From Morinoia aosen (lineage: Eukaryota; Arthropoda; Malacostraca; Amphipoda; Talitridae): DNA of 64,000 bases. Made by a program: the position numbers and the translations under genes. Under the pieces are notes generated by a model. It was not told where the DNA came from. It ran no database searches and saw nothing but the letters and a program-made list of their open reading frames with translations. How positions within the stretch are numbered: position 1 is the stretch's first letter; every line of letters begins with the position of its first letter. This document shows positions 1 to 44,539 of this stretch, in pieces. Location: contig CM059570.1 of NCBI GenBank assembly GCA_030386875.1, positions 30,743,422-30,807,421 of the forward strand, in the 5' to 3' direction.

Positions 1-10
1 TTCAACTGAC

Positions 11-209
11 CTGCGGGAACGATGTTGAAGACACAAGGCTCGCGCTGTTTGCCGACAGCGTTCTCAGCTCTGCACTGTAGAGTCCCGTACTCGAAGTCGC
101 TCGTCGGCGTGTACTCCAGGACGCTGGTGTCTTTAGTGACCGAAAACGAGTCCTCGGGCACTTCAAAACTTTCAGCTGTGTTGTTGAAGGTCCAGTGGAA
201 GCGGGACGC
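11..209 (-). CDS. Sidestep-like exon J: second half of Ig5
   Basis: 199 nt, residues 458-524. Acceptor AATTACGCAG, donor CCCGCAG|GTCAGT; phase 0 in, phase 1 out. It encodes ASRFHWTFNNTAESFEVPED, the Y-x-x-L-x-C end of Ig5 as SDFEYGTLQCRAENAVG, and EPCVFNIVPA. An NNT sequon follows the core tryptophan. The sequence runs out ten bases later, so the following exons (expected FN3-like and membrane parts) are not visible. Confidence 0.93.
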
Positions 210-3200: not shown

Positions 3201-6200
3201 TCAAAATTCTATTCTGTCAATTTCACAAAGAGTTTGCAAAGTTCAGTTCCACAATCTGTCAATCTCATTAAGAATTGGCAAAGTACAGAAGATAATTTGT
3301 CAATCTCATCAAGAAATACCTAAATTCAGCAGTACAATCTGCCAATTTTACCAAAAACCACATGAGTGTAGAACTGCAATTTCTTAATCTCATTAAAAAT
3401 TACCTAAGGTCGGAGCAAAGTCTGTCAATTTCATTAAGAAATACCTTAGTTGAGTTTCACTATCTGTCAATCTTATCATTTAGTATCTACAAGCATAAGA
3501 GATAAAGTTCTGACATGTTATGATGTGCGATCCGCAATCGCTGTAGCAAAAATTGTCACCTAAATAGTACAAAATCCAGTAAAAATTAACAAAAAATGAT
3601 GGCTAAATTGTATTAAATCCAGTAAAAATTGACTTCTAAACGCTAAATTAAATAAAATAAGTGTGCGTTGGGAGAAGCACGCATTGTTGCCTTACCGAGG
3701 GCACAGCGTCGGCAGCACAAGACACCCTGACGGTCTCGCCCCTCTCTGCTCCGTAGCTGTGCACCAGTCCCTCTCTGCACACTGGCGAGTCTGGCACGGC
3801 AAAAAGTTACGGTGGTTGACCTTTTCCACGATATTAAAAGACATTAAAACTTTGCCTTCAATTACTGAAGTTCAATATGTTAAACTCAATTTGGAAGTCA
3901 ATTATAGTAAGCAAATTCTGAAAATAGCAAATATTAACTGGATGGTGGGTGCATTCATTTAACATTAATAAAGTATTCATGAAAATTAAGCTTGGGACTG
4001 CTGGTCGGTCAGCAGCATTATGAAAATCCCATCCGTGGCCACCGGTGGTGCACGTTGGGGTCAAAGTGTTAAACATCCATTTTTTGGAAAATGAACCCCA
4101 ATAATGACCTTTAAACTGCCGCGAATTTATTTTTCAGAACATCCAAAAAGAATTTCACGTATACATCTTGAGAGATTGTATACGAAATGCGAAGCGTCAG
4201 TACTAACAAGGATGAGTATATTGTGGTTCTTGGGCATGCATCTCGAAAACTTGCTGCTATAGCAGCAAGTTTGTCGAGAGCTTGTGTGTTGTTCCTTTTC
4301 ATTTCACGTGTCCTGCAGCCAGCCTTTGCTTCTGCCCTTTCGGATAGGCTCGTTTGTGGCGGGCATTTGTTCCTGACACTTGATCAAAGAGTACCCGAGT
4401 CTCCGGAATATGTTTGACGCAAATTCGTGCTAGAAGAAAACGTCGGCCAGATCTTGATCTTGGGCTTTGGTGCACATGTTTTCCTATTCAGAAAAAATCC
4501 AGTTTGTACAGGTTTGTATGCATAAAGCGGCTCGTAAGTTTTGGAGAATTCGGACTAGAAGAAAACGCTGGCCAGATCTTGATCTCATACTTTTAATCGT
4601 ATATTTTGGTATTTAAAAAATCCAGTTTGTATAGGTTTGTACATATAGAGCGACTCGTACGTTGGATGCAAAGTCGAACTAGAGGAAAACTCGTCAGAGT
4701 CCGACAATAGACTTTAGTGCGCATGTTCTCCTCGTTGAAAAAATTCAACCTGTACAGGTTTGTGCATGTAAACCAGCTCGTTGAAATGTGCAGAACGTAA
4801 CTGCACTCAAATGCACTATAAATTGTAGAATGAATTTCACAAAAATTGAATTTGAAGCTCAGTGAAGCGTAAAATGAAACTGGCAGCTGCTGGGGAAAAC
4901 CAAAAGTCTGTAAATAAAATAAAAGTTCTAACGCTGCAAATAGAGAAACGAAAACGCGTGACAAAGTCGATCAATTTGTAGGCGCTGTTGGCAACTTTAG
5001 ACATAGGTGAATAAGTGTGTTTCGGTGCTACTATAGCGTGAGGTCCATCGCCATATATCGTTTACCCAGGTACAGTTCAAAATGTATAAATGAAGGGCTT
5101 ATCTCTAAATTAAATGTATGGAAATAAGTGATATCCATTCGTAACCGAACCTAACCTAACCTAACCTAACCTAACCTAACATCACGCTATAGTACTATAG
5201 CTAAAGATAGATCTCATGTATAGTGCAGGAGTAAACCTTACGCTATAGCAGCATTTATGTTTTTATGAATCTATTCCTTAACATCAGAAGACGAAGGATC
5301 ACTTTCTTGACTAGTCGGAATAGAATTAGCTTACAGAAATAGCTCCTTTAAAAATACCAGCTCCACACCGCCCATAGAGCGCAAGGCTGTCAAATTTACA
5401 CAAAAAACATCTGAGAAGGCGCCATAAAATCTAGTGAAGCGCATAATCTCACATACGCTTGCCTCTAATTACTTTGCCCTTCCCTTATCTGGGTGCGAAT
5501 GCTGGCTTTTAATTAATCCAACTCGTTTTTACGCGCACATGCAAGTTAAAAAAAGTCTTTTTCAAGAAGCATCGCGTGCAAACAAAAACTAATTTGCATG
5601 GATGCCACGTACTAGAAAAAATGGTGTCATAAAAGTATAATTAAACGTAAACTAATATCATTTTTATTGATAATATTCCCGCAACTTTTCTAGCTAAAAG
5701 TTGCGAAAGTCAAATGTTTTTTTTGCGCCATTCGTTTGCAAAAGGATATGTTTATAAAAATTTGCTGCTAGTTCCTCTTTACCAGGAAAATGATCGCATA
5801 AAAAGAAAAATTTTACGAAAACTAATATTTTTTTTATTGATAATATCCGCACAATTTTTCTAGCTAAAAGTTGCGAGAGTCAATTTTTTTTGCGCCATTG
5901 GTTTGCAAAATGATAGTATGAAAATTTGCTGATAGTTCCTCTTTACAGTGGAATTCGCACAGAACGCTTGAACTGCACAAACATACAGAGGCTAGCCTTA
6001 TCTTAATGGTATCTCATATTTTATTTTCGAGATAAATACATTGTTTAGAGAAACTTAGACCGTCACTAAATAATGAACGCGTAATACCAAACTTCGGACA
6101 GTAATAATAAGACAAGGTTATTCATGCTAAAGCTAGCACGTAGTCTGATATTAATGAGCTAGGACAGTCCCGCGACTTTGAGGTTATCATCAAGGCAAGT

Positions 6201-9200
6201 TATCAAGGCTATCATCACTATCGAGGCTATCATCACAATCAAGGTTATCATCATTATCAAGGCTATCATCACTTTGAGGCTATCATGAAGGCAAGCATAA
6301 GTATCATTTGCTGCTTCACCTTCACAGAAAGAAAATTTCTTTTTTTCTGGGTGAGCCTGATACAAATCATCATTTACATTGGTTTTTCAAATGCTTAATA
6401 ACTAGCGCCATGACTCAATGACGTTTACTTCCGGGTAATCCTGTTCTCATTTCCGACACCTGAGTAGAGTGGAGGAATTATGGCTAAGTTCTCCCTTTTC
6501 CCAACGGGAAGAATCACTGGGCGGCATTGCCGGGACTCGGACTGCAGACCCTTCCCGTGAAGGGTGCGCACTCTTAACCACTCGGCCACGGTGACTACAC
6601 AAACACCCAAATCACATCAGAGATCTGTGACTTGGAGCGGACATGTAAGGTTTCCTTGTAAAATATTCTCCTTATCTTCGGTTGAAATCAAACGTATACT
6701 TTGGAGTTCATAAGGTAATAGATTTTGAGCACCACGAACTTCATGCTAAGCCCAAAAATGGATTAATTGCTTTAATATTCGAGATTGAATTCTTTATGAA
6801 TTTTGGGAATCCTGGGCTTCTCATACAACTCACAATGAATTTTGAGCGCATTGGGCCGAAATCAGAGTTGAGCTCTTAATGAATTTTGAATACTTTGTTA
6901 AAAATTTAATTTTCAACTTTTTTAATGAGGCTTAGGCTTGGGGTAAAAACTTCCAATGAATTTTAGGTTTTACAGTACTCACAACGAATTTTGAGAGATT
7001 TAGCCTCAGCACTGAACCCTCATCTTAATTATTGAGCGTTGAGTTTTAGGTTTAACGCACTGTGAATTTTATATTCCTTGGGATTAACACAAAACTCAAT
7101 AAATTCTGAGTATCAATTCCTTAAACTTGAACTCCCGAATTAAACTATCTTTGGCATTACACTGAACCTTTAGCGAATTTTAATTAAGTATATCAGGTAT
7201 TCCACTCAACTCACAATGAATATCAAGTACCTCATGCATTTCACTCAACTCACAATGAATTTCAAGTACCTCATGCATTTCACTCAACTCACAATGAATT
7301 TCAAGTACCTCATGCATTTCACTCAACTCACAATGAATTTCAAGTACCTCATGCATTTCACTCAACAAACAATGAATTTCAAGTACCTCATGCATTTCAC
7401 TCAACTCACAATGAATTTCAAGTACCTCATGCATTTCACTCAACTCACAATGAGTTTCAAGTACCTCATGCATTTCACTCAACTCACAATGAATTTCAAG
7501 TACCTCATGCATTTCACTCAACTCACAATGAATTTCAAGTACCTCATGCATTTCACTCAACAAACAATGAATTTCAAGTACCTCATGCATTTCACTCAAC
7601 AAACAATGAATTTCAAGTACCTCAGGTATTTCACTCAACTCACAATGAATTTCAAGTACCTCATGCATTTCACTCAACAAACAATGAATTTCAAGTACCT
7701 CATGCATTTCACTCAACAAACAATGAATTTCAAGTACCTCATGCATTTCACTCAACAAACAATGAATTTCAAGTACCTCATGCATTTCACTCAACTCACA
7801 ATGAATTTCAAGTACCTCATGCATTTCACTCAACTCACAATGAATTTCAAGTACCTCATGCATTTCACTCAACAAACAATGAATTTCAAGTACCTCATGC
7901 ATTTCACTCAACTCACAATGAATTTCAAGTACCTCATGCATTTCACTCAACTCACAATGAATATCAAGTACCTCATGCATTTCACTCAACTCACAATGAA
8001 TTTCAAGTACCTCAAGTATTTCACTCAACAAACAATGAATTTCAAGTACCTAATGCATTTCACTCAACAAACAATGAATTTCAAGTACCTCATGCATTTC
8101 ACTCAACAAACAATGAATTTCAAGTACCTCATGCATTTCACTCAACTCACAATGAATTTCAAGAACCTCATGCATTTCACTCAACTCACAATGAATTTCA
8201 AGTACCTCATGCATTTCACTCAACTCACAATGAATTTCAAGTACCTCAAGTATTTCACTCAACTCACAATGAATTTCAAGTACCTCATGCATTTCACTCA
8301 ACTCACAATGAATTTCAAGTACCTCAAGTATTTCACTCAACTCACAATGAATTTCAAGTACCTCATGCATTTCACTCAACTCACAATGAATTTCTAGTAC
8401 CTCATGCATTTCACTCAACTCACAATGAATTTCTAGTACCTCATGCATTTCACTCAACTCACAATGAATTTCAAGTACCTCATGCATTTCACTCAACTCA
8501 CAATGATTTTCAAGTACCTCATGCATTTCACTCAACTCACAATGAATTTCAAGTACCTCATGCATTTCACTCAACTCACAATGAATTTCAAGTACCTCAT
8601 GCATTTCACTCAACTCACAATGAATTTCAAGTACCTCATGCATTTCACTCAACTCACAATGAATTTCAAGTACCTCATGCATTTCACTCAACTCACAATG
8701 AATTTCAAGTACCTCATGCATTTCACTCAACTCACAATGAATTTCAAGTACCTCATGCATTTCACTCAACTCACAATGAATATCAAGTACCTCATGCATT
8801 TCACTCAACTCACAATGAATTTCAAGTACCTCAAGTATTTCACTCAACAAACAATGAATTTCAAGTACCTCATGCATTTCACTCAACAAACAATGAATTT
8901 CAAGTACCTCATGCATTTCACTCAACAAACAATGAATTTCAAGTACCTCATGCATTTCACTCAACTCACAATGAATTTCAAGTACCTCATGCATTTCACT
9001 CAACAAACAATGAATTTCAAGTACCTCATGCATTTCACTCAACTCACAATGAATTTCAAGTACCTCATGCATTTCACTCAACTCACAATGAATTTCAAGT
9101 ACCTCATGCATTTCACTCAACAAACAATGAATTTCAAGTACCTCATGCATTTCACTCAACAAACAATGAATTTCAAGTACCTCACGCATTTCACTCAACA

Positions 9201-12200
9201 AACAATGAATTTCAAGCACCTCAGGTATTTCACCCAACGCACAGTGGATTTTAAGAATTTCTGGTATTCAACCCAACTCAATAAATTTCAAGTACCTCAT
9301 TCATATCACCCAACTCAATAAATTTCAAGTATCTCTGGCATTTCATTCAACTCACAGTGTATTTTAAGAATCTTGGGTTTGCTGGTGCTGTCCCCCTCAA
9401 CGTTGCTGGCCCGGCACGTGTAGCCGCCGGCGTGTCGTCTGTTCACTCGCTGGAGCACCAAACTTTTCTGTGTGACCAGGACGCCTTCGTTGCGGTCCTG
9501 GCGCACTTGCTGGCCCTGCAACAAAAAGCCTGCAATTTACGACCCGACACACAGCCTAACAAACACTCGTGAACCCTCGTAAGCTCTGGCAAAGCTTCAC
9601 GTCCCGTCACTTGCTGACCAGACCCAAGATTGATCGCAACTGCTATTGCCTTTCTTGAGAAAGGAAGACGCGGTATTGGTTCATCGAGATCCTAGCGTTG
9701 GTTAGACGCAAAGCTTTATTTGGAAGGTTTTATTGCCCTTACGACCTGTGCTGCCTCCTTGTATTACTCTTGTGAGGTGATTGTCACCGGTTGTGCTGCG
9801 TGGCACTGACAACCGGCTTTTGGTTATGAAAAAATATGTTGTCTGCAAGTTATAGATCCGTGTTGAAATTAGTCGTGTGTAGCTATTGCACTCCAGGTTT
9901 ACGAGACGAGACTCGAGAAATAATAAATAGTCTTTAACAAAATGAAATATTTGACCAATGAATTCATTTTGTTATGTAGAGGCTTTCTGGTATTTTCTAT
10001 TCCAAGATAGCATGACAGTATGAGTAGGTGACTTTGCGCGGAAAGTCATAAAAATTAAAAAATGGTAAAATTTGCTTTAGTCTTGAACAGAATAACCTCA
10101 AACCATTCCAATGGTTCATAGGTTCTAAATCTGATACAAAAATACACTAAGTTGTTAACCGTGGCCTACTGCAAAATTTTTTCTTCCCTGATTGGTTACC
10201 ATGAAAACCTAGTAGGCCATTTGACCCACAAAACTAAATGCTGTTAGTGGTTAGATATTAAGCATATCCTTGCACCTTGCTTCTAACAATGTAGTAAATA
10301 AAGCTTTCAAGTCTTTCATGTCAAGTTCCAGCGACATACCAACTGAGCTGTGGGCAGGCCAACGTCCATGGAAGGAGCTTAACTCATAAGCCCTTTTCTG
10401 GGTGCACCGTCCAAAATCCCTTTCAAGATGCTAAATACACAAAATGTTGTAACCGTTATTTTGCTATCAGGAAGCAAATTCTTATCCTTAAATCCTCAAC
10501 CCAAATTAGCATTCTCTTTTGTGAGTGTTTAACTTAAACTCTTTCGTGAATTCGAAATTCTTAATTGCCTTTCATGAATTATAAATTCTCAACATCTTTA
10601 CAGGAATATTTCATTTTTCATCGTCTCACGTAAAATTTATTCCTCCATATTTTTCGTGAATACTCTTTTTCGGGGATACATAACCAACATTCTCTTCCGC
10701 AAATCCTTCCTTATATATCAACCTCTTCTCAGAATGCTCAGTCCTGAATCTCTTTGGTTAATGCTAGATCCTTGAAATATTCTTGATGAGATGAATCCTC
10801 ACTCTCTTTCGGGAACGCCAAACCTCTAATTATTCCGATATGAATAATCCTCGCTCTCTTTCGGCGACGCTAAATCCTAAGTCTCTCGTTAAAATACTAA
10901 ATCCTTGATATCTTTTGGGCACGCTTAATCCTTAAGCTTATCCGGGAATGCGAATCCTAAATCTATTCATGACTGCAAAACCCAGGTTGCGAAGTCCTGA
11001 AACTCTTGGAAGAGTATTAAATGAATAAACTAAATTTATCACAACCTCACTCCCTACAACACCTCAGCCAACCTCTTGCATAACCTCTTAAAGCCTCTTA
11101 ATAACCTCTTAATAACCTCTTAAAACCTGTCCGGACAATTCGCATTTGAACTTTGAATTTCTAGCCAAATGAATACAAAAGCCGTGGCTTACACACCTCA
11201 CGTGTTGCCTTGAATTTCAAGTGTGGTGGATGCAAAAGCCGTGGCTTACCTCGTGTTGCCTTGACTTTAAGTCTGATGGATGCAAAAGCCATGGCTCATC
11301 TCGTGAACCCTTGAATTCCAAGTGTGATGGATCCAAAAGCCACGGCTCTCCTCGTTATGCCTTCATTTTAAGTCTGGTGGATGGAAAAGCCGTGACTCAC
11401 CTCGTGGTGCCACGTGACCTTGTAGGCCGGCGGGTTGGCGTTCACTTTGCACTCGAAGTAAACGTCGTCGCCCTCCCGTATTTTTGTGGGGTCCAGAGAC
11501 GCTCCGAGTCCTACGGAAACTTCCGGGATATCTGTCACAAATATGATATTAGGTGAAATATTATATATCCTAATGACGTTTTTCAATAAGCTATCCATAC
11601 TTTTAAGCCAGTGGGATGCTTGCGAAAAAGATGGGTTTAATGTTGAAAACTTGAATACCCTATAATCTTTTTCACATAAATGTTTTTATTTTTTACTTGA
11701 TATGTGTCATAAATATAACATGAGGTGGAAAATTTCAAGTTCTAATAATTTATTCAATGTGCTATCCATACTCTTAAACTTGCGGAATTTTTGCGAAGAG
11801 AAAATTTAACGATGAAAAATTGAGGCGTATAAATATGTTTTTATATTTTTCCCCACACGTACTAGACCCACACACAGTACACAGTAGACCACTCACAGTA
11901 CACAGTCACCATACAGTGGACCCACACACAGTACACAGCAGACACACTCACTACATAGTAGACCACACACAGCACACAGGACACACACTCACAGTATACA
12001 GAGAGCTGGAGGCTGTCCCGCACGAGCGCGTCCGGCAGCTTGGGGTTGTGCGCGCTGCAGGCGACGGCCTGTTGGTGCAAGCTCGCGTTGATGGCCAGCC
12101 GCAGCACCGACCTCGACACGTTCCCTTCCTGCCACGTCTGCGCCGGGGCTCAGGGTTAGTTCGTGTCATGACTTAGGGTTAGTTCGTGTCATGACTTAGG

Positions 12201-33200: not shown

Positions 33201-36200
33201 CATGTCATTCATGAAATGCTATTGTCATTAGCGAAATGCTAATGTCATTAGCGAAATGATAATGTCATTAGCGAAAATCTAATGTCATTCATGAAATGCT
33301 CATGTCATTCGTGAAATGCTATTATCATTAGCGAAATGCTAACGTCATTAGCGGAATGCTAATGTCATTGGCGAAAATCTAATGTCATTCGTGAATTGCT
33401 AATGTCATTAGCGAAATGCTATTGTCATTCGTGAATTGCTAATGTCATTCGTGAAATGATAATGTCATTCGTGGAATGTTAATGTCATTCGTGAAATACT
33501 CACGTCATTCGTGACATGCTAACATCATTCGTAGAATGCTCATGTCATCCGTGACATGCAAGTATAACTTTCGAATTGCAGACATAATTTTGGAGCTGTT
33601 ATATATCGATCGGGAAATTGCACTTGTAATTCGTAAGAAATCCTCGTTTCAAAAATCCAATTCTCATAAATTAAATGTGTCACTCGTAAAATAGCGCTAA
33701 TCATTTGTCGAAACGCTCGTTTCATTCATGAAAAAACGTGACATTTGAAAAGAAAGTCTATATTGCACGGGGAAATACAAATAACATTCGCGGAATTGTT
33801 CATAATATTCGTGAAAATGCACTGGTTATTCGTGAAAGTTTTTTATAGTTTTGGAGCATGTTTTCAGTATTCGGGGAAATGCTTCCCTTTAACAAAAAGC
33901 TAACTCAATTTTGTCGTAGAAGCTTAGGAACCAAAACTCGATAACTAGAACTTAAAAAGTAGCATTTCTTTCTTTGAGCATTATTCTCAATAAATACCTT
34001 TTCCTAGCCTAAGGACACCAAGCCATGGATTGCTTAACGAACAATGAGTAAAGCCAGTATAAGTTAATCTTCTTATGCACTGATTTCAACATACATCCAT
34101 GAGTTACGTTGTAAATTTTCTATTTTATCTGCAAAAAGCAGTTCGAAGTAACAATGACGAAGTGCACCAAACTCGACGTTCTTTAACAGAGTATATTGTT
34201 CATATCAAATTTTATCCATACAACCAGGGATGTAGTAAGTTCAAGTGTCGTGCACTCTCAACTGAACACACTACAAAACACGATCTATTCTCCACTCAAC
34301 TCACTACAAAACACGATCTATTCTCCACTCAACTCACTACAAAACACGATCTACTCTCAACTCAACTCACTACAAAACACGATCTACTCTCCGCTCAACA
34401 CACCACAGAACACGATGTGCTCTCAACTGAACACACTACAAAACACGATCTACTCTTAACTCAATTCACTACAAAACACGATCTACTCTCCACTTACACA
34501 CCACAAAACACGATGAGCTCTCAACTGAAAGCACCACAAAACACGATTTACTAAACTCAACACACTACAAAACTTAGTGTGCTCTCAACTCAACACAAAA
34601 CACAATGCACTCGCAACTGAACATTAAAGAACACGATCTACTCTCAACTCAATGTACCACAAACACAATGTACTCCCAACTCAACGCAAAACACAACGTA
34701 CTCCCAACTCAACACACCACAAAACCCGACATACTCCCAACTAAGCACGTCAAAAAATTTAGTGTACACAGTATTTTGTGCGGTCAACTTCGCAAGTTCG
34801 AGTCACCAGGGCCGCATCACGCTATATGGTCGGGCACTGACAAGCGGCAGCATGTTACGCACACGCAACTTGCAGGCACTCACTCCAGCGAAGGTTCTGT
34901 CTGCTGTTCAGTAAATATTTATGCGAGAAGCAAGCTGCTTTTTTTCTTGGACACTCGCCCGCTTCTCCATCCTGAGAGCCAAACGCAAGAATTCCGTACA
35001 AAGAAAATACGTTCTGCCGGAGTACTCATTTCAACGAAGCACGTCTTGCCTCAAACTTGCATGAGGAAATGTTGATAGCACACGTATGTTGAATTGAGAT
35101 GGAGGTATTTTCAGTCCCGTTGAGTTAAGAAATGCTTGGGAAATACAGCATGTGTACATCTATGCATTTCAATTCAGTTGTTTTGAACCTTAATGAGCAA
35201 GTTAGAGCATGATGTTGCTATTAATGTTTTTAGACTCTGAGAGAAACCTTGATAAACTTTGGCTTGAATTCACACTCTCATTGGTGAAGCATGGAGAGCA
35301 TTTTCTACCCTGAGAAATTATATGTACCCTTCATGCATCCACAACGCATAGTAGCTAGTTTGAAGCCCCGTTTCTATCGCAAAGATATTTTTGCGTAGAA
35401 AAGTGAAGGGACTATTTAGCGTTGACTGAATGAAACGTGGAATCTATGCACAAGGTGCGTTCCCCTACCGGATACTCTGAACATAGAAAGACAAAGTTAA
35501 AAAGGAAAAGAATGAAAAGACACAAAAGAGACAGCGAAAAAGGGATGGGAACTGAAAGAAAATTGACGGGTTCAAAAGACATAAGTCCTAAAGGCCTATC
35601 TATCAACTGAGGTAACCTAACAGTTTCTCCCAAGGAGACGCCAGTCCCGATTGCAGTGGATAGACAAACATTACTAACCTGAAACTATTGCCTATTCTAT
35701 GCCCCATGAAGGGTTATATCTTCACGTCTGGCAAACATTCTGCGTGTGCATTGCGATGTCATTTATTTATGAATGTCATTTATTTATGAAAACTTGCGTC
35801 TCAAAAATCGTATTCTCTGACTGCGCTATATCTGATCTTTTGTAGAGCCACTCTGTTGTCTGGCTCTCATAGAAACGTGGAATTTATGCACAAGGTGTTA
35901 ATGTATTTTGTGATGTGTCTTTTGAGTACATATTGTTACTGTCCCTTGTATGTATGAGATAAAATGCTTTTCTATTGGTGTTCCGCCTGTTTCTACATAG
36001 AAAGAACGGGAAGGCAAGAAACGCTGGAACTTTGGCCTAATCAATAAATTCAGCTTCCCTGAGGCCATGAAAAACTGTCCTTTATTCAAGTTTTAAAATT
36101 TATGGCCTTTTCGCACCACCACTTGAGCGTCGACGTCCAGTAAATGAAATAAAACTACGTGCTTGGAAGAAATATTTTTTTGCATGCCATGGATTGCTCC

Positions 36201-39200: not shown

Positions 39201-42200
39201 CAACTGTTGACTTAGCTTTGATGTGAGGGGAATTTTAATTACACTGCCGATCTCCCCTCGTGTTACTGATAGGCTCTGAGGAATAATTTCACAGCTTAGC
39301 AAAAACCTTAGCCGAGCAAGCGTTTCTATTTTTAAAGTTCAATGGCTTCTTACATACCAACGAAGCCAGTGTGTTACGAGCGTGTTGCAAGGGTAGCCAG
39401 CGTTCATAAATTGCGTTCTTGGATAATAGGGTATGAAATAGGGCGTATTGGATATTTTGTTTATACTAGAGTATGAAAATAAGGCGTATTGGATATTTTG
39501 CCTATAATAGGGTATGAAAATAGGGCGTATTAGATATTTTGTCTATAATAGTGTATGAAATAGAATGTTTTGGATATTTTGTCGATAATAGGGTATAACA
39601 ATAGGGCGTATTGGATATTTTGTCTATAATAGGGTATGAAAATAGGGCGTATTGGATATTTTCTCTATAATAGGGTATGAAAATAGCGCGTATTGAATAT
39701 TTTGTCTATAACAGGGTATGCAAATAGGGCGTATTGGATATTTTGTCTATAATAAGGTATGAAAATAGGGTGTATTGGATATTTTGTCTATAATAGGGTA
39801 TGAAAATAGGGCGGATTGGATATTTTATCTATAATAGGGTTTGAAATAGGGTGTATTTGATATTTTGTTTATAATAGGGTATGAAAATAGGAAGTATTGA
39901 AAGTTTTGTCCATAATAGGGTTTGGAAATAGGGCGGACTGAATAGTTCAGATAGGAGGCGTTGACGCACCTGTAGATAGGAGGCGTTGACGTATACATAG
40001 GAGGCGTTGACGTACCTGTAGATAGGAGGCATTGACGTATACACAGGAGGCGTTGACGTACCTGTAGATAGGAGGCATTGACGTATACATAGGAGGCGTT
40101 GACCTACCTGTAGATAGGAGGCATTGCAGTATACATAGGAGGCGTTGACGTACCTGTAGATAGGAGGCATTGACGTATACATAGGAGGCATTGACGTGTA
40201 CATAGGAGGCGTTGACGTACTTGTAGATAGGAGGCATTGACGTATACATAGAAGGCGTTGACGTACTTGTAGATAGGAGGCATTGAAGTATACATAGAAG
40301 GCGTTGACGTACCTGTAGATAGGAGGCATTGACGTATACATAGGAGGTGTTGACGTACCTGTAGATAGGAGGCATTGACGTATACATAGAATGCGTTGAC
40401 GTACTTGTAGATAGGAGGCATTGAAGTATACATAGAAGGCGTTGACGTACCTGTAGATAGGAGGCATTGACGTATACACAGGAGGCGTTGACGTACCTGT
40501 AGATAGGAGGCATTGACGTATACATAGGAGGCGTTGACGCACCTGTAGATAGTAGGCATTGACGTACCTGTAGATAAGAGGCATTGACGTATACATAGGA
40601 GGCGTTGACGCACCTGTAGATAGAAGGCATTGACGTACCTGTAGATAAGAGGCATTGACGTATACATAGGAGGCGTTGACGCACCTGTAGATAGAAGGCA
40701 TTGAAGTACCTGTAGATAAGAGGCATTGACGTATACATAGGAGGTGTTGACGCACCTGTAGATAGAAGGCATTGACGTGTACATAGAAGGCGTTGACGTA
40801 CTTGTAGATAGGAGGCATTGACGTAAACATAGGAGGCGTTGACGCACCTGTAGATAGAAGGCATTGACGTACCTGTAGATAAGAGGCATTGACGTATACA
40901 TAGGAGGCGTTGACGCACCTGTAGATAGAAGGCATTGACGTACCTGTAGATAAGAGGCATTGACGTATACATAGGAGGCGTTGACGCACCTGTAGATAGA
41001 AGGCATTGACGTACCTGTAGATAAGAGGCATTGACGTATACATAGGAGGTGTTGACGCACCTGTAGATAGAAGGCATTGACGTGTACATAGAAGGCGTTG
41101 ACGTACTTGTAGATAGGAGGCATTGACGTATACATAGGAGGCGTTGACGCACCTGTAGATAGAAGGCATTGACGTACCTGTAGATAAGAGGCATTGACGT
41201 ATACATAGGAGGCGTTGACGCACCTGTAGATAGAAGGCATTGACGTACCTGTAGATAAGAGGCATTGACGTATACATAGGAGGCGTTGACGCACCTGTAG
41301 ATAGAAGGCATTGACGTACCTGTAGATAAGAGGCATTGACGTATACATAGGAGGTGTTGACGCACCTGTAGATAGAAGGCATTGACGTGTACATAGAAGG
41401 CGTTGACGTACTTGTAGATAGGAGGCATTGACGTATACATAGGAGGCGTTGACGCACCTGTAGATAGAAGGCATTGACATACCTGTATATAAGAGGCATT
41501 GACGTATACATAGGAGGCGTTGACGCACCTGTAGATAGAAGGCATTGACGTACCTGTAGATAAGAGGCATTGACGTATACATAGGAGGCGTTGACGCACC
41601 TGTAGATAGAAGGCATTGACGTACCTGTAGATAAGAGGCATTGACGTATACATAGGAGGCGTTGACGCACCTGTAGATAGAAGGCATTGACGTACCTGTA
41701 GATAAGAGGCATTGACGTATACATAGGAGGTGTTGACGCACCTGTAGATAGAAGGCATTGACGTGTACATAGAAGGCGTTGACGTACTTGTAGATAGGAG
41801 GCATTGACGTATACATAGGAGGCGTTGACGCACCTGTAGATAGAAGGCATTGACGTACCTGTAGATAGGAGGCATTGACGTATACATAGGAGGCGTTGAC
41901 GCACCTGTAGATAGAAGGCATTGACGTACCTGTAGATAAGAGGCATTGACGTGTACATAGGAGGCGTTGACGCACCTGTAGATAGAAGGCATTGACGTAC
42001 CTGTAGATAAGAGGCATTGGCGTATACATAGGAGGCGTTGACGCACCTGTAGATAGAAGGCATTGACGTACCTGTAGATAAGAGGCATTGACGTATACAT
42101 AGGAGGTGTTGACGCACCTGTAGATAGAAGGCATTGACGTGTACATAGAAGGCGTTGACGTACCTGTAGATAGGAGGCATTGAAGTATACATAGGAGGCG

Positions 42201-42596
42201 TTGACGTACCTGTAGATAGGAGGTGCTGACGTACCTGTAGATAGGAGGCATTGACGTATATACAGGAGGTGCTGACGTACCTATATATGGGAGGCCTTGA
42301 CGTATACATAGGAGGTGCTGACGTACCTATATATGAGAGGCATTGACGTATACATAGGAGGTGCTGACGTACCTATATATGGGAGGCATTGACGTATACA
42401 TAGGAGGTGCTGAGGTACCTATATATATAGGAGGCATTGACGTATACACAGTAGGTGCTGACGTACCTATATATGGGAGGTGCCAGTCCCTCCCTGAACC
42501 AGAGCACGAGGTTGACGGCGTCGTCTGCGGCAGCTGTCATGTTGCATGGCAACTTGACAGACCGGCCTTCCACCCCCACCATGCCCACCGACGCGT
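11..42596 (-). CDS. Sidestep-family Ig-superfamily cell-surface protein, partial gene, ten internal exons (Ig1 to Ig5)
   Basis: Ten exons on the minus strand join in frame to about 524 codons: 42467-42596, 32839-33041, 30759-30869, 23323-23565, 21097-21248, 11993-12137, 11401-11531, 9356-9515, 3696-3790, 11-209. Each has an AG acceptor and a GT donor, and every intron phase matches its partner. The product has five Ig domains, each with the paired cysteines and core tryptophan (for example KLPC/LWF/LYKC in Ig1, YFEC/VTW/YTC in Ig4). The order and wording (REGLAPPIYSYDLR, KIREGDDVYFEC, FHWTFNN, EPCVFNIVPA) match the arthropod Sidestep family, single-pass neuronal surface proteins that bind Beaten path receptors in axon guidance and partner matching. 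That role is family knowledge, not seen here. All inter-domain introns are phase 1. Missing: signal-peptide exon, and the FN3-like, transmembrane and cytoplasmic exons, which should lie outside. Which Sidestep paralogue this is cannot be decided from this window. Confidence 0.9.
244..270. repeat. Perfect 12-bp-stem palindrome
   Basis: AAGAACAAATGC and its exact reverse complement, separated by AAC. It lies in the intron 35 bases upstream of exon J in transcript order. Confidence 0.85.
450..481. repeat. Perfect 14-bp-stem palindrome
   Basis: TGCATGAGGAGTAT, four-base loop ATTG, then the exact reverse complement. Confidence 0.88.
1356..1375. repeat. 20-bp perfect palindrome
   Basis: AATGAACAAA followed directly by its reverse complement. 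Confidence 0.8.
3165..3475. repeat. Degenerate ~60-bp tandem repeat
   Basis: About five diverged units around TCTGTCAATCTCATTAAGAA and AATACCTAA. Old array in intron I-J. Confidence 0.7.
3535..3640. repeat. Two-copy repeat near exon I donor
   Basis: ATCCAGTAAAAATT and neighbouring bases occur twice, about 60 bp apart, starting about 55 bases into the intron after exon I. No donor sequence is visible in the unit. Confidence 0.6.
3696..3790 (-). CDS. Sidestep-like exon I: first half of Ig5
   Basis: 95 nt, residues 426-457. Acceptor TTTTTGCCGTGCCAG, donor CCCTCG|GTAAGG; phase 1 in, phase 0 out. It encodes YSPVCREGLVHSYGAERGET and VRVSCAADAVPS. The S/A-P-V-C opening and the V-x-C-x-x-D-A-x-P ending fit the start of Ig5. 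Found from the need for a phase 1 to phase 0 exon between H and J; joins both without changing frame. Confidence 0.9.
3858..4030 (-). repeat. Dispersed repeat family DR-1, copy a
   Basis: Read on the minus strand this matches copies at 37140, 43318 and 47333 (shared GCTGACCGACCAG, ATAAATACTTAA-like and ATTGAACTTCAGT blocks). Family unknown; no protein seen. Confidence 0.7.
4241..4279. repeat. 39-bp near-perfect palindrome
   Basis: Outer TCTCGA/TCGAGA and inner AAACTTGCTGCTA with its reverse complement; one base offset between the two blocks. Confidence 0.8.
4410..4795. repeat. ~125-bp tandem repeat, about three copies
   Basis: Each copy has a CTAGAAGAAAACG-like block, CAGATCTTGATC, and a CCAGTTTGTACAGGTTTGT block. 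Copies differ by many substitutions, so the array is old. Confidence 0.75.
4796..5639. other. Intron H-I, no gene; holds a telomere-type tract
   Basis: Apart from the (CCTAA)n tract at 5150-5180 and three copies of a TATAGCGT-type motif around it in both orientations, nothing recognised. Confidence 0.5.
5150..5180. repeat. Interstitial (CCTAA)6, arthropod telomere-type repeat
   Basis: Six tandem CCTAA units (TTAGG on the minus strand), the canonical arthropod telomere repeat. Flanked on both sides by inverted CTATAGCGTGA/TCACGCTATAG motifs. Confidence 0.85.
5640..5940. repeat. Two-copy ~175-bp direct repeat
   Basis: Both copies carry TTTTTATTGATAATAT, TTTTCTAGCTAAAAGTTGCG, TTTGCGCCATT and TAGTTCCTCTTTAC. 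About 85-90% alike by eye. Confidence 0.75.
6180..6295. repeat. ~20-bp TATCATCA-rich minisatellite
   Basis: About six units of the type AAGGCTATCATCACTATC. Confidence 0.75.
6376..6600 (-). mobile_element. tRNA-derived SINE, copy 1
   Basis: On the minus strand the element starts with a tRNA-like head: a good A box (TGGCCGAGTGG) and B box (GTCCGAGTCC) about the normal distance apart, as in Ser/Leu-type tRNAs. A body with CCACTCTACTCAGGTGTC and TCATGGCG follows, then a 3' end GCATTTGAAAAACCAATGTA. The copy at 53740-53962 shares all parts in the same orientation. RNA polymerase III transcription is inferred from the boxes. Confidence 0.8.
6690..9355. repeat. 39-bp satellite seeded by the exon H donor junction
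   Basis: About 55 near-identical 39-bp units from 7200 to 9230, with strongly diverged units at both ends (6690-7195 and 9231-9355). On the gene strand each unit reads GAAATTCATT|GTGAGTTG or, in a common variant, GTTTGT in place of GTGAGT. Exon H ends AAAATACACT|GTGAGTTG. The unit at about 9239-9261 (CACAGTGGATTTTAAGAA on the plus strand) differs from the exon end (CACAGTGTATTTTAAGAA) by one base over that stretch, so the array includes exon-derived sequence and a donor copy per unit. Because 39 is a multiple of three, both strands show long meaningless open frames. Confidence 0.9.
9356..9515 (-). CDS. Sidestep-like exon H: second half of Ig4
   Basis: 160 nt, residues 373-426. Acceptor TTTTTGTTGCAG, donor AATACACT|GTGAGT; phase 0 in, phase 1 out. 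It encodes GQQVRQDRNEGVLVTQKSLV, LQRVNRRHAGGYTCRASNVE and GDSTSKPKILKIH. It gives the second Ig4 cysteine in a G-x-Y-x-C motif. The last 20 or so exonic bases reappear, degraded, in the first repeat units of the large array just downstream. Confidence 0.93.
9516..10489. other. Intron G-H, no gene or clear repeat
   Basis: After the acceptor of exon H I see ordinary AT-rich intron sequence without tandem structure. Confidence 0.5.
10490..11130. repeat. Degenerate CTCTTTCG-type repeats and AACCTCTTA minisatellite
   Basis: From 10490 to 10990, decayed units of the form AATCCTCACTCTCTTTCG and ACGCTAAATCCT. From 11040 to 11130, short AACCTCTTAAT units. Confidence 0.65.
11165..11400. repeat. ~58-bp tandem repeat seeded by the exon G donor junction
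   Basis: Four units run up to the splice site. On the gene strand exon G ends CACCACGAG|GTGAGTCACGG; units read ACACGAG|GTAAGCCACGG, TCACGAG|ATGAGCCATGG and TAACGAG|GAGAGCCGTGG, each followed by CTTTTGCATCCA-like sequence. The last 7 or so exonic bases are part of the unit, and one unit keeps a full GTAAGC donor. Confidence 0.85.
11401..11531 (-). CDS. Sidestep-like exon G: first half of Ig4
   Basis: 131 nt, residues 329-372. Acceptor TTTGTGACAG, donor CACGAG|GTGAGT; phase 1 in, phase 0 out. It encodes YIPEVSVGLGASLDP, TKIREGDDVYFECKVNANPP and AYKVTWHHE. The IREGDDVYFEC-x-V-x-A-N-P motif is the most diagnostic stretch of the Sidestep family. Both flanks are tandem duplications that include the splice junction. 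Confidence 0.95.
11525..11866. repeat. Two-copy ~170-bp duplication spanning the exon G acceptor
   Basis: The second copy starts at about 11697. The plus-strand GGATATCTGTCACAAATATGA at the exon edge is matched by TGATATGTGTCATAAATATAA; later blocks (GCTATCCATACT, TTGCG, TAAATATGTTTTTAT) also recur in order. The duplicated acceptor AG has decayed. Confidence 0.75.
11867..11992. repeat. ~21-bp repeat seeded by the exon F donor junction
   Basis: On the gene strand exon F ends GTATACT|GTGAGTGTGTG, and about six following units read GTGTACTGTGTGTGGGTC or GTGTACTGTGAGTGGTC. One further unit keeps an exact TACT|GTGAGT. Confidence 0.72.
11993..12137 (-). CDS. Sidestep-like exon F: second half of Ig3
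   Basis: 145 nt, residues 281-329. Acceptor CCCCGGCGCAG, donor GTATACT|GTGAGT; phase 0 in, phase 1 out. It encodes TWQEGNVSRSVLRLAINAS, QQAVACSAHNPKLPDALVRD and SLQLSVY. It supplies the second Ig3 cysteine, two sequons (NVS, NAS) and the C-S/R-A-x-N-P-x-x-P stretch typical of the family. Joining to exon G rebuilds a tyrosine and reads SVYYIPEVSVGLG, which supports both splice sites. Confidence 0.92.
12138..12312. repeat. 23-bp array against the exon F acceptor, with branch-point-like motif
   Basis: Seven units, gene strand CACGAACTAACCCTAAGTCA, reach to about 14 bases from the acceptor. Every unit holds ACTAAC or ACTAAT, the metazoan branch-point type; the nearest one is about 18 bases from the AG. 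Confidence 0.8.
12313..12560. repeat. ~60-bp tandem repeat, four diverged copies
   Basis: Units share GTGAAATCG, GTGATCAAAAGGGAAT-like and AACGAAATT-like blocks, continuing directly from the 23-bp array in intron E-F. Confidence 0.65.
12561..13377. other. Intron E-F, microsatellite, otherwise nothing
   Basis: Contains a (CA)n/(GT)n palindromic microsatellite at about 12759-12803 with CGACG at its centre. No gene signal. Confidence 0.55.
13378..13683. repeat. ~300-bp imperfect inverted repeat
   Basis: GAACAATATT to GTAGATTTTC (13378-13505) is matched by the reverse complement of about 13545-13683. Strongest block: GCTGTTCATTACGGCGCTG in one arm and its inverse in the other. Arms are about 75% alike with one larger gap. 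A decayed foldback element or inverted duplication; no transposase seen. Confidence 0.65.
13746..14315. repeat. 28-bp minisatellite, about 20 units
   Basis: Units GATCGAGAGCAGTCACAC plus ACTTGAATCA, with GAGAACAGT and ACGTGAATCA variants. Toward 14300 a shortened variant (CAGTATGA) alternates with the full unit. Confidence 0.9.
14316..15452. other. Intron E-F, nothing recognised
   Basis: AT-rich with no convincing exon, repeat or RNA. The last hundred bases may belong to the 3' flank of the neighbouring retroelement. Confidence 0.45.
15521..15558 (-). ncRNA. Hammerhead-like motif, second tail
   Basis: Same sequence as 17585-17626 on the opposite strand, within the other arm of the inverted dimer. 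Confidence 0.48.
17190..17697 (+). mobile_element. Inverted 3' fragment of the Penelope-like element
   Basis: Contains most of the GIY-YIG domain and the tail, on the plus strand, matching the minus-strand copy 15453-15970 almost base for base. Both tails hold a hammerhead-like motif. Confidence 0.88.
17585..17626 (+). ncRNA. Hammerhead-like motif in Penelope tail
   Basis: TTGATAA, a GACCA/TGGTC helix II, then GAAAC with TTC after it and a short GTG/CAC helix I. Hammerhead motifs in Penelope-like elements are established. The core CTGATGA is degenerate here, so activity is doubtful. The inverse copy lies at 15521-15558. Confidence 0.5.
17698..19429. other. Intron E-F, nothing recognised
   Basis: AT-rich with TATA-type low-complexity sequence near 18410-18520 and decayed AAAGAAAACCTT-type repeats near 18720-18820. 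No gene signal on either strand. Confidence 0.45.
19430..21060. repeat. Degenerate ~65-bp array ending 37 bases from exon E donor
   Basis: Units of the type CAAACCATAAGCCACATC, ACATTAACCAGTTCTCT, AATTTACCCT, very decayed at the left and clearer toward 20700-21000. The rightmost partial unit (CATCAGACCAGCAGCCCC) ends just inside the intron start. A link to the donor itself (AACTG|GTTAATG versus GACCAG|GTGAGG) is possible but weak. Confidence 0.7.
21097..21248 (-). CDS. Sidestep-like exon E: first half of Ig3
   Basis: 152 nt, residues 230-280. Acceptor CTCGCCCCCCAG with a strong C-rich tract; donor GACCAG|GTGAGG; phase 1 in, phase 0 out. It encodes LRPLEVVISEPVEPFSAGR, TYDLMCTSRGSRPPALISWW and RLRPIADQ. 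The SAGR, the cysteine, the GSRPPA-x-I-x-W motif and the position right after Ig2 are hallmarks of Sidestep Ig3. Confidence 0.93.
21290..21640. repeat. 60-bp (2 x 30) array near exon E acceptor
   Basis: Units CAATTGAATTTATTCCTGGG and TGAATTGATTTTAGTACAAG joined by TGTCCCATC. On the gene strand each contains GTACTAAA, close to a branch-point motif. Starts about 45 bases from the acceptor. Confidence 0.8.
21641..22785. other. Intron D-E, nothing recognised
   Basis: AT-rich; a decayed repeat with CAAATCATGTA and CAGTAAATTATGA lies near 22380-22620. No exon signal. Confidence 0.45.
22786..23310. repeat. ~29-bp array running up to exon D donor
   Basis: Gene-strand units such as CAGGGTGGTAGATGCCCTGT, about 18 copies, begin about 15 bases after the donor. 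The first unit (GACATGGTGTAGAGCA) resembles the junction GACATGAACT|GTGAGTGA with two bases lost, which would make it junction-derived; suggestive only. Confidence 0.75.
23323..23565 (-). CDS. Sidestep-like exon D: second half of Ig2
   Basis: 243 nt, residues 149-230. Acceptor GACCGTCAG, donor ATGAACT|GTGAGTG; phase 1 in and out. It encodes GSPPPDLEWELQGEVV (core tryptophan), a serine/threonine/glycine-rich linker, ISQLVLQSLPRKYVLADITC (second Ig2 cysteine) and ATIDMN. The last codon (T plus TA from exon E) gives the MNLRPLEV junction that family members show between Ig2 and Ig3. GC-rich in contrast to its AT-rich intron flanks, both of which start with degenerate tandem repeats. Confidence 0.92.
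23566..23985. repeat. ~60-bp array starting at exon D acceptor
   Basis: About seven decayed units with TTCAAGTCGTTTGACGTACG, AAATTTGTATTCGAT and AAAAAGCG. Starts within about 25 bases of the acceptor. Confidence 0.8.
24265..24300 (+). ncRNA. Hammerhead ribozyme core
   Basis: Canonical CTGATGA, a GGG/CCC helix II, then GAAAC and GTTC. The CGAAACGTTCA end matches the Penelope tails at 15.5 and 17.6 kb, so this is likely the tail of another Penelope-like insertion whose body I do not see. Helix I is poor. Confidence 0.55.
24301..24859. other. Intron C-D, nothing recognised
   Basis: A C-rich stretch at 24480-24530 (CTCCCCCCTCACTCCC) is the only notable base-composition feature. Confidence 0.45.
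24860..24975. repeat. ~20-bp AATACTAACTTA minisatellite
   Basis: About six units of ATAATACTAACTTA-type sequence. Confidence 0.8.
24976..26759. other. Intron C-D, nothing recognised
   Basis: A GC-rich island at about 25025-25140 (CGAGCGCGGGCGGCGCG) breaks the AT-rich background; I could not fit it to an exon. TTTCCCATGACAAG-type repeats occur twice near 26400-26470. Confidence 0.4.
26760..27160. repeat. ~37-bp degenerate minisatellite
   Basis: Units with ACAATAATTG, CATGATAAATG and GGAAAACAAAAAATT, about ten copies. Confidence 0.8.
27180..27605. repeat. ~105-bp tandem repeat, about four copies
   Basis: Units share GATGATGTTACCGTTAATTT-like, CCTGGAACAGC-like and TTAAAAGATTTC-like blocks in order; old. 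Confidence 0.7.
27606..28984. other. Intron C-D, GC-rich patches without an assignable exon
   Basis: 27600-27790 and 27850-27930 are GC-rich, but no frame with flanking splice sites convinced me. 28300-28400 holds three TTTAATTTAGAATAAAAATT units. Confidence 0.4.
28985..29100. repeat. 33-bp repeat, three units
   Basis: GGTGCTCTCGGACGCTGTAA plus ACACAATTAAA, three copies, the last diverged. Confidence 0.85.
29165..29340. repeat. ~41-bp repeat, four units
   Basis: Units CTCGCTAAAAGTAGGGAA and TGCCTGCCAATATCGCCAGC. Confidence 0.88.
29345..29989. repeat. 32-bp array, left part of the exon C donor-side array
   Basis: About 18 units CACTAGAGGCAGATGGTATT plus TGCCATCACCCT. Gene strand: GGCAAATACCATCTGCCTC. 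Interrupted on the right by the foldback element at 29992-30576; related units resume at 30577. Confidence 0.88.
29992..30576. mobile_element. 585-bp foldback element from a DUF4817 mariner-type transposon
   Basis: A near-palindrome with TA on each side, as for Tc1/mariner insertion. Termini are AGGTGTTTTTTAAATACGGG and its inverse; the arms are about 280 bp with a ~26-bp spacer at 30269-30295. Each arm carries, pointing to the centre, the start of a frame MTNWTKEQLAFISTAYF, which resembles the DUF4817 N-terminal helix-turn-helix domain of insect mariner-like transposases. So the element seems to be two copies of a transposon's 5' end, head to head. Non-autonomous. It sits inside the exon C donor-side array and is therefore younger. 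Confidence 0.82.
30577..30758. repeat. Exon C donor-side repeats, proximal part
   Basis: Decayed gene-strand units such as GGAACTGGCAAGTATTACTA run up to a TATATA stretch at the donor. Compare the junction ACTGGAG|GTAAGTGTTA: the unit looks like the junction lacking GGT. Suggestive, not decisive. Confidence 0.6.
30759..30869 (-). CDS. Sidestep-like exon C: first half of Ig2
   Basis: 111 nt, residues 112-149. Acceptor TCTCGCACAG, donor ACTGGAG|GTAAGTG; phase 1 in and out. It encodes VPPTSLVLQDEEGMPIRS, VTEDSNLRISCVATG. The VPP start and the Ser-Cys-x-x-x-Gly ending match the start of Ig2 in the family. The Gly codon is split with exon D. Too short to be found without the flanking exons, but frame, phase and motif agree on both sides. 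Arrays lie on both flanks. Confidence 0.88.
30870..31010. repeat. ~45-bp repeat at exon C acceptor, pseudo-acceptors
   Basis: Three units on the gene strand: TTACCTTTTAGCC, TGTACCTCTTAGCC and, at the true site, TTGCCTCTCGCACAG|T. Each unit also has TTTCTAG|GTAATAAAT or a variant, an acceptor and donor back to back. Confidence 0.72.
31011..32240. other. Intron B-C with two decayed arrays
   Basis: 31210-31400: units of AATCAATCATTAATCATTTT and TGCATCGAAT. 31900-32240: units of AATACCTATTTTACTCACTA. The remainder is unassigned. Confidence 0.6.
32241..32724. other. Intron B-C, nothing recognised
   Basis: A duplicated block with CAAACTCTACGCATAT occurs twice near 32440-32510. No gene signal. Confidence 0.45.
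32725..32838 (+). repeat. Dispersed repeat family DR-2, copy abutting exon B donor
   Basis: GAGCAACTTACC, TTTGGCCCAATACGTATT and GTTAACGTATT blocks match 47900-48000 and 46375-46450. The copy runs directly into the donor of exon B, so it probably supplies the first intron bases there. Confidence 0.55.
32839..33041 (-). CDS. Sidestep-like exon B: second half of Ig1
   Basis: 203 nt, residues 44-112. Acceptor TGTCCCCAG, phase 2 in; phase 1 out. It encodes YDLRELSGPLHWHDS, then FLELKNLRPADRGLYKC (the D-x-G-x-Y-x-C motif closing Ig1) and NNRVNLTIV with an NLT sequon. The donor is TTGTCG|GTCGGT, the weakest of the ten; two nearby GT choices break the frame to exon C, so phase decides it. The donor side has no tandem array but abuts a dispersed repeat (32725-32838). 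The acceptor side meets a 20-bp array about 23 bases away. Confidence 0.88.
33064..33560. repeat. 20-bp array against exon B acceptor
   Basis: About 24 units CATTCGTGAAATGCTAATGT with CATTAGCGAAATGCTAATGT variants. It starts about 22 bases from the acceptor and fades into decayed ATTCGTGAAA units to about 33860. Confidence 0.9.
33561..34249. other. Intron A-B, decayed repeats, no gene
   Basis: Weak continuation of the 20-bp array to about 33860, then unassigned. 34020-34150 shares GGATTGCT, AACAATGA and CACTGATTT blocks with 36185-36260, a diverged duplicate. Confidence 0.5.
34250..34760. repeat. ~33-bp ACTACAAAACACGATCTACT minisatellite
   Basis: About 14 units of CTCAACTCAACTCACTACAA plus AACACGATCTACT, decaying to the right into CACAATGTACTCCCAACT variants. 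Confidence 0.88.
34761..36940. other. Intron A-B, nothing recognised
   Basis: Contains the partner of the 34.1-kb duplicate (36150-36440), a two-copy TGTCATTTATTTATGAA at 35755-35790, and a repeated AACGTGGAATYTATGCACAAGG at 35430 and 35875. GC-rich 36540-36780 could not be fitted to an exon. Confidence 0.4.
36941..37043. repeat. 103-nt hairpin, pre-miRNA-sized
   Basis: CAGTCTAACTTTT... pairs with ...AAAAGTTAGACTG; about 31 of 36 positions pair, including the inner GCATGCAT block, leaving a loop of about 30 bases. Size and stem quality are pre-miRNA-like, but a small inverted-repeat transposon is equally possible. Confidence 0.6.
37140..37330 (+). repeat. Dispersed repeat family DR-1, copy b
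   Basis: TTGCTGACCGACCACTAGTC, ACAAACTCAATTTTCATAAA, then AATATTGAACTTCAGTTCGA; matches copies a, c and d. Confidence 0.75.
37620..38590. repeat. 19-bp minisatellite, about 50 units
   Basis: GAGAGTTCAATGTAACTAT with AACCAT and TTACTAT variants; very uniform in the middle, decayed at the right end. Confidence 0.95.
38820..39085. repeat. ~38-bp minisatellite, seven units
   Basis: TGCGTGCATGTGGTGAAGTT plus AACATGTATGTTCTATAA. Confidence 0.92.
39415..39935. repeat. ~40-bp minisatellite, about 13 units
   Basis: AATAGGGTATGAAAATAGGG plus CGTATTGGATATTTTGTCTAT. It leads directly into the 2.5-kb array. Confidence 0.92.
39940..42466. repeat. 2.5-kb array seeded by the exon A donor junction
   Basis: Near the exon the units are 46 bp (two ~23-bp halves); farther away they are 71-bp trimers in higher-order blocks of about 305 or 376 bp marked by a GACGTGTACATAGAAGG variant (40771, 41076, 41381, 41757, 42133). 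On the gene strand exon A ends CCTCCCATATATAG|GTACGTCAGCACC, and a copy at 42361-42386 repeats those exonic bases, donor and intron bases exactly. Distal units read CCTATCTACAG|GTACGT or CTACAG|GTGCGT: a pyrimidine-rich acceptor-like stretch joined to a donor. All three minus frames stay open for long distances because of the repetition. Confidence 0.93.
42467..42596 (-). CDS. Sidestep-like exon A: first half of Ig1
   Basis: 130 nt, residues 1-44 of the assembled protein. It enters in phase 1 after acceptor GTTGACAG and leaves in phase 2 at donor ATATATAG|GTACGT. It encodes GMVGVEGRSVKLPC (first Ig cysteine), an NMT N-glycosylation sequon, then NLVLWFREGLAPPIYS with the core tryptophan, as in the V-set-like first domain of Sidestep proteins. 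The final serine codon is split and completed by exon B. The 14 exonic bases before the donor, together with the donor itself, recur in the array that begins directly downstream. The preceding exon (signal peptide) must end in phase 1; I did not find it. Confidence 0.9.
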
Positions 42597-42654
42597 CTGT
42601 CAACGAAAGAAAACGGTAAATGATTAATAATTTTAAACGTTCACCGCGTTTTTG

Positions 42655-44194: not shown

Positions 44195-44416
44195 ACTAGT
44201 CCACCCCCTTTATTTTAAATAAAAAAGAGGGCGAAATGAGAGAAAGACCGTGAAAAAATAAAAAATTCAATCTCTCGAGAGTTGATGAGGCCGCGTGAAC
44301 ACGGCCCGTCAAAATATATAGGACTGGAGCTTGTATCACAGATACGCTCATCACACACTGCAGGCTGGCTTCGGACAGACAGAGAGACGGACGGACACTG
44401 CTCTTATTATAGTACA
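44195..44416 (-). mobile_element. Helentron-like non-autonomous element, copy 1
   Basis: On the minus strand it begins at TGTACTATAATAAGAGC, followed by GTCCGTC repeats, and ends GGTGGACTAGT. The TACTATAATAAGAG start and CTAGT end are typical of Helentron/HINE elements. An imperfect GGCCGTGTTCACGCGGCC palindrome lies inside. Two more copies at 46096 and 58137 have the same orientation and ends. Confidence 0.65.
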
Positions 44417-44539
44417 GGTTACAATTTGAAGTTGTGGTAAGTTGTGCATTATTTCGAAAGTTACAAGTGGGTGAACTAATACGTCGCATTAGTGGCGGGG
44501 CTTGTGTGGAAAAAATCCCTCAACCCTTCAGTTATAGAC

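Follow-up and report, generated by a model that had tools for sequence, protein, structure and literature searches.

Tandem repeats whose units run across exon-intron boundaries, so-called mirages, have been described in amphioxus for Adh3, troponin C, the globin genes BflGb6 and BflGb9 and PGBD5; mirages are reported at both types of boundary and regular splicing is described as undisturbed (PMC3087553, PMC3902484). In plant introns, tandem repeats follow a U-shaped distribution and are denser toward the ends (PMC3887541). For the polyubiquitin gene UBC, tandem dual-specific splice sites have been described that delimit the coding monomers and were shown to be used (PMC10809524). Here, we describe a 64,000-nucleotide stretch of the genome of the talitrid amphipod Morinoia aosen (the window; GCA_030386875.1, contig CM059570.1, positions 30,743,422 to 30,807,421), which carries ten exons of a gene of the sidestep family, and in which several exon-intron junctions are repeated, together with some exonic bases, inside minisatellites of the adjoining introns. 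The same was found in unrelated chaperonin genes of this genome. An earlier note on this DNA held that no such system had been described; this claim to novelty fails, since amphioxus mirages are already on record.

The window is located on contig C15 of an assembly of 1.99 Gb in 29 contigs. The gene is encoded on the minus strand, as are all exons and arrays listed below, starts at around 42.6 kb and continues past the start of the window, with two more exons in the downstream flank. Its ten window exons, lettered A to J and corresponding in order to Ig1a to Ig5b, run from position 42596 down to 11. They form a single open frame when spliced, and none of the nine window junctions shows an alignment gap against the homologs of Cherax and Homarus, which bears out the ten-exon gene proposed earlier. 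The spliced protein shares 51-53% identity with proteins of Cherax, Homarus and Penaeus at a query coverage of 92-99%; these decapod homologs carry the source names nephrin-like or syg-2-like. Exon B (Ig1b, 32839..33041) matches Sidestep VII in the Protein Data Bank (E=1.8e-12) and, like exon A and exons C to H, is supported by the spliced frame and the decapod alignment. Judged by homology across the Ig domains, the predicted gene is a member of the sidestep family.

To compare junctions with their introns, a 40-nt seed centred on the junction (20 exonic and 20 intronic nucleotides) was aligned to the junction's own intron within 600 bp, and scores of at least 17 were counted. The test covers 89 of the 92 junctions of the sidestep gene and nine chaperonin genes, three having been dropped for N or a flank below 150 bp. 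The threshold was reached at 5 of 23 sidestep-gene junctions and at 9 of 66 chaperonin junctions, compared with 2/484 and 2/4224 mismatched exon/intron controls, respectively; reversed and reverse-complemented seeds each scored 0/89. The two mismatched sidestep hits may be caused by the Ig3b donor and the Ig4a acceptor lying in a common intron. With an alternative seed layout, the match in the own intron exceeded every mismatched one at 6/19 sidestep and 11/68 chaperonin junctions. The proposed resemblance between units and their own junctions thus stands against mismatched pairs in the ten genes. A separate scan found boundary-crossing repeats at 14 of the 92 junctions, namely at eight donors and six acceptors, which contain 2-30 exonic nucleotides (median 14) and range from diverged two-copy duplications, such as the 76% identical copies at intron C4 i3, to long arrays. 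The repeats fade within the exon: across 45 introns, the match rate is 0 at exon positions -40 to -20, and at positions 0 to 20 it is 0.19 at donors and 0.17 at acceptors.

Four of the five sidestep positives are located in the window; the remaining one, at the acceptor of exon FN3b, lies beyond it. The units at the donors of exons A, F, G and H contain 14, 9, 21 and 18 exonic nucleotides, respectively, and hence do resemble their own junctions as the earlier note had suggested. At exon A (Ig1a, 42467..42596), the donor-seeded array consists of 46- and 71-bp units (39949..42483); the array seeded on the donor of exon F (Ig3b, 11993..12137) has a unit of about 41 bp (11900..11992), and that of exon G (Ig4a, 11401..11531) has units of 50 and 101 bp (11201..11411). 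The donor of exon H (Ig4b, 9356..9515) has seeded a 39-bp array of around 55 copies (7199..9368). Two acceptors for which the same likeness had been claimed agree in part. A single diverged copy of the exon G acceptor region (11699..11758) is 74% identical over about 60 nt and includes five exonic bases, but its seed score of 15 is below 17. At exon C (Ig2a, 30759..30869), the unit of a 42-bp array located 7 bp upstream of the acceptor (30879..31005) is similar to the acceptor on its intronic side (-35 to -7), but contains no exonic bases.

The chaperonin set comprises 56 of 72 profile matches, which are distributed over nine intron-bearing genes, five of which were identified as CCT gamma, delta, epsilon, eta and theta; the 16 matches left out, on C26, C27, C4 (at 78.67 Mb) and C1, are mostly long frames that look intronless. 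Forty-five chaperonin introns were called, two pairs being skipped, and 11 introns with a score below 2 were dropped, which left 34; the doubtful junction call of C16 i2 was counted as negative. In CCT delta, a copy of the donor starts 81 bp into the intron, includes 26 exonic bases and is 91% identical, and the acceptor in CCT theta is preceded by three upstream copies at a spacing of 38 bp. At eight of the nine chaperonin seed positives, the junctions are ungapped against solved CCT chains and the exon-proximal copy fits; the junction of the ninth, C4 i0, is supported by the profile only. CCT5 of this genome is 96% identical to that of the talitrid amphipod Trinorchestia longiramus and 82-83% identical to the best Penaeus entries, which points to a talitroid amphipod as the likely source; at 5/5 CCT5 junctions compared with Trinorchestia the exon-proximal copy joins the conserved protein. 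Junction-crossing repeats therefore occur outside the sidestep gene, and with 9 of 66 chaperonin junctions repeated, the phenomenon is not private to it. Among the frames left out, six near full-length intronless chaperonin frames on C27 (56.8-71.8 Mb) and one more on C26 resemble bacterial GroEL, which hints at cobiont sequence in the assembly.

Arrays were defined with Tandem Repeats Finder (TRF) at a period of at least 8, in a region of 93.9 kb consisting of the window and 29.9 kb downstream. They make up 31% of this region and on average 27% of the introns of the sidestep gene. Among 81 arrays with a period of at least 10, three pairs share a unit, two of which are adjoining arrays; sharing is thus rare, but the statement that no two arrays share a unit was too strict. 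The Ig1a and Ig4b arrays were searched against the whole genome, very common words being skipped: the Ig4b array matches itself alone (11 places), and the Ig1a array matches itself (15 places) and, with seven weak matches of 68-71%, one array on C19. The two longest arrays are hence of local origin. It was considered whether a dispersed satellite or mobile element had delivered the arrays to the exons, for which the weakly related array on C19 would speak; however, the crossing units hold the exon's own bases, the genome search, which passes over very common words, places the Ig1a and Ig4b arrays essentially at their own locus alone, and units are rarely shared. This origin was rejected as extremely improbable.

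Units that contain the exon's own bases in register point to a duplication across the boundary. The earlier proposal that arrays were born in this way is supported where the unit has exonic bases, but it does not extend to the other near-junction arrays of the sidestep gene, whose units lack the junction. It is very probable that the crossing arrays are mirage minisatellites, which arose by neutral tandem duplication across junctions, were tolerated and expanded intronward. In a genome where new minisatellites arise frequently, some short tandem duplications of tens to a few hundred bp would by chance span the boundary between an exon and its intron. Splicing would continue at the copy nearest the exon and leave the coding sequence unchanged, and since this copy keeps the conserved protein, the second one, together with the few exonic bases it contains, would become part of the intron. 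The proximal site is presumably the one used in the RNA, as suggested by the restored conserved protein. Duplicates may be tolerated because the exon-proximal site remains in use, and being nearly neutral, they would be free to expand by slippage or unequal exchange into the intron and to be homogenised, reaching at least 50 copies, each of which would bear splice-site-like sequence. A different outcome of such duplications is foreseen by the Rogers model of intron gain, in which tandem duplication of AG|GT-bearing exon sequence creates an intron. An AG|GT-bounded array on an exon end is what this model predicts, and intron gain from mirages has been proposed for the amphioxus globins (PMC3087553); however, the arrays found here occupy one end of introns that are mostly filled with other sequence, and we regard it as very unlikely that some of these introns were made in this manner.

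Expanded arrays supply decoy splice sites, the strength of which was estimated with simple position weights set from recall, i.e. with untrained models. The Ig1a array contains 53 sense GT donors that score at least as high as the real donor and the Ig4b array contains 35, with none on the antisense strand of either; in both arrays, many units keep the AG/GT signals, as is the case for mirages. The dozens of decoys on the transcribed strand that had been predicted are therefore present in these two arrays, but the arrays of Ig3b and Ig4a have none that reaches the strength of their real donors. Both acceptor-like and donor-like flanks, and thus dual-specific strength, are seen at 53 AG|GT sites of the Ig1a array; four other arrays examined contain no such site. 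Across the 94 kb, 66 dual-type AG|GT sites lie in sense and 11 in antisense orientation. The mean donor score of donor-side arrays (n=10) is -0.3 in sense and -3.0 in antisense, a difference that is suggestive only, and that of interior arrays (n=64) is -2.7 and -3.2, respectively. It could be argued that the arrays act in splicing and that their donor, branch-point-like or AG|GT sites hold the spliceosome close to the exon or enable recursive removal of the intron; the dual-type flanks in the Ig1a array and the many Ig1a and Ig4b decoys that equal or exceed the real site are in line with this. However, units descended from a junction would be expected to carry decoys, no decoy of the Ig3b or Ig4a array equals the real donor, the units differ at every junction and exons I and J have no strong array. 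Outside the Ig1a array, moreover, 13 sense sites face 11 antisense sites, so there is no strand bias. A role in splicing is thus improbable. A function derived from open frames through the arrays was dismissed by argument rather than computation, as a homogeneous short unit is often free of stops by chance.

Further arrays of the gene lie close to junctions, mostly without containing them. A 20-bp array (33065..33559) ends 23 bp upstream of the exon B acceptor, and its unit lacks the junction. Exon C is followed by a 32-bp array 32 bp downstream of its donor (30650..30727). Exon D (Ig2b, 23323..23565) is flanked by an array of about 50- and 96-bp units upstream of its acceptor (23639..23957) and by a 24-bp array 26 bp downstream of its donor (23099..23296), and exon E (Ig3a, 21097..21248) by a 30/60/120-bp array 64 bp upstream of the acceptor (21313..21635) and a 45/90-bp array 98 bp downstream of the donor (20666..20996). 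The 23-bp array located 14 bp upstream of the exon F acceptor (12152..12304) has a consensus unit with CTAAC, which we take to be a branch-point-like word. The sole array at exon I (Ig5a, 3696..3790) is a two-copy repeat 65 bp from the donor, and TRF found no array near exon J (Ig5b, 11..209). In the window, TRF places an array no more than 50 bp from a junction for seven of the ten exons; the earlier count of at least eight within about 50 bases was slightly generous, given the distances at exon E.

Several observations weigh against the mirage reading. Most near-junction arrays of the sidestep gene do not have the junction in their unit, so these must either have arisen differently or have decayed until the junction can no longer be recognised; two of the four donor-seeded arrays, Ig3b and Ig4a, contain no decoy that equals the real donor; and the chaperonin junctions come from a script rather than from transcripts. 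Furthermore, the repeat rate at the junction (0.17-0.19) is about equal to that of the intron interior (0.16), which means that the crossing repeats alone show no preference for junctions.

Whether arrays are concentrated near junctions was assessed at several distance cut-offs. In the sidestep gene, 17 of 24 junctions have an array no farther than 100 bp into the intron, as compared to 9.0 for random intronic points (P=0.001). With random points placed in the same intron, the counts are 16/22 intron ends versus 7.9 within 100 bp (P=0.0001) and 12/22 versus 7.1 within 50 bp (P=0.017), and there is no excess at 25 bp (8/22 versus 6.5). In the chaperonin genes, 13 of 68 junctions have an array within 100 bp versus 9.8 expected, which is not significant (P=0.12), again with no excess at 25 bp. 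The closeness to splice sites suggested by the earlier note is thus significant in the sidestep gene, but not in the nine chaperonin genes. Pooled, the two sets give 29/90 versus 17.7 (P=0.0003), and introns shorter than 1.5 kb give 10/42 versus 5.6 (P=0.019). Edges and interiors were further compared in the 37 of 45 introns that are at least 600 bp long: the array rate at 20-120 bp from the junction is 0.27 on the donor side and 0.32 on the acceptor side versus 0.16 in the interior, and the paired edge-minus-interior rate is +0.136 (sign-flip P=0.0018). Taken by itself, the sidestep gene gives P=0.002, and the chaperonin introns give +0.068 (P=0.098).

Two explanations compete for these numbers. 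Arrays could be born evenly along introns, in which case their closeness to junctions in the sidestep gene would reflect the base rate and the choice of a gene that looked striking. The high average share of arrays in its introns, the non-significant chaperonin result, the missing excess at 25 bp in either set and junction positions that are repeated no more than the interior fit this explanation, whereas the same-intron result for the sidestep gene and the edge excess, the latter smaller and not significant in chaperonin introns, do not; we give it a little less than an even chance. It concerns where duplications arise and is compatible with the formation of mirages. Alternatively, the 130 bp or so next to splice sites may produce or retain arrays at about twice the rate, either by seeding at junctions or by the exclusion of transposons and deletions from these positions. 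The pooled and short-intron excesses and the raised rates at 20-120 bp argue for such a hot spot or refuge; however, the signal is driven by one chosen gene, several cut-offs were used and the chaperonin genes alone show no significant effect, and we regard this explanation as less likely than not. The claim of a preference is weakened by the fact that the pooled significance leans on a gene picked as striking, and a junction preference of arrays across genes is not shown.

Some further features were noted. Within the coding sequence of exon D, an 18-bp tandem repeat of 2.5 copies (23429-23473) coincides with a 13-residue insertion that the Cherax and Homarus proteins lack. Reverse-transcriptase-like and GIY-YIG-like frames (15639-17508) lie in the intron that separates exons E and F, with a second copy of the element end nearby; these presumably belong to a Penelope-like element. 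Upstream of exon A (42700-64000), there are many further unrelated arrays, for instance at 49832-51275 and 62484-63495, and a peptide with LQCVMSVSVIQAP and YILTGRVHAASSTLE is encoded in three copies (44196-44519, 46078-46344 and 58143-58409), which are repeat-derived and probably represent a dispersed repeat. Elsewhere in the genome, six adjacent myosin-head matches at C1:35644596-35648320 cover a common profile stretch (about 376-436) and look like a cluster of alternative exons of a muscle myosin.

It is tempting to speculate that, throughout the genome, the splice junctions of talitroid amphipods give rise to minisatellites and shelter them, that a substantial minority of all junctions is repeated in the own intron and that some arrays are trains of dual-specific AG|GT sites, although we consider this rather unlikely. 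If true, trains of dozens of AG|GT sites would feed recursive splicing and the birth of introns and exons, or would alternatively reveal how the spliceosome settles on a single donor when around 50 are equal. The arrays are long enough for testing the choice of the exon-proximal donor among about 50 equally strong ones, and the gradation from diverged pairs of copies up to long arrays provides material for modelling how tandem duplication changes introns. What had been a curiosity of a few amphioxus genes now extends to an arthropod and to housekeeping genes. Among the matches listed in a literature search, titles and the opening lines of abstracts contain no earlier report of junction-spanning arrays in an arthropod, and a word search of a Daphnia tandem-repeat paper (PMC3152781) did not find splice terms.

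Taken together, the amphipod arrays share with amphioxus mirages units that span the exon-intron boundary with exonic bases and the occurrence at both 5' and 3' boundaries. They differ in being found in an arthropod, in reaching around 55 copies and 2.5 kb, in being known from the sequence of one assembly and in affecting five junctions of one gene in addition to 9/66 chaperonin junctions. A minisatellite of the human 6-16 gene (IFI6), described by Turri in 1995, reportedly contains multiple splice donor sites; going by its title, that work likewise concerns a minisatellite that supplies donor sites, whereas the sites described here are read from sequence alone. The tandem AG|GT sites of the Ig1a array resemble those of UBC in that each could in principle serve as donor or acceptor, but they are intronic and predicted. 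Plant introns have repeats that are more common near their ends; here, an excess of arrays near intron ends is significant in the sidestep gene (P=0.0001), but not in the nine chaperonin genes (P=0.12). The plant motifs named in the available portion of that study are mostly short, and units copied from the own junction are not mentioned there (PMC3887541). The amphipod arrays thus very probably belong to the known mirage kind, to which they add the occurrence in an arthropod, long arrays and a rate estimated from a small sample of one genome.
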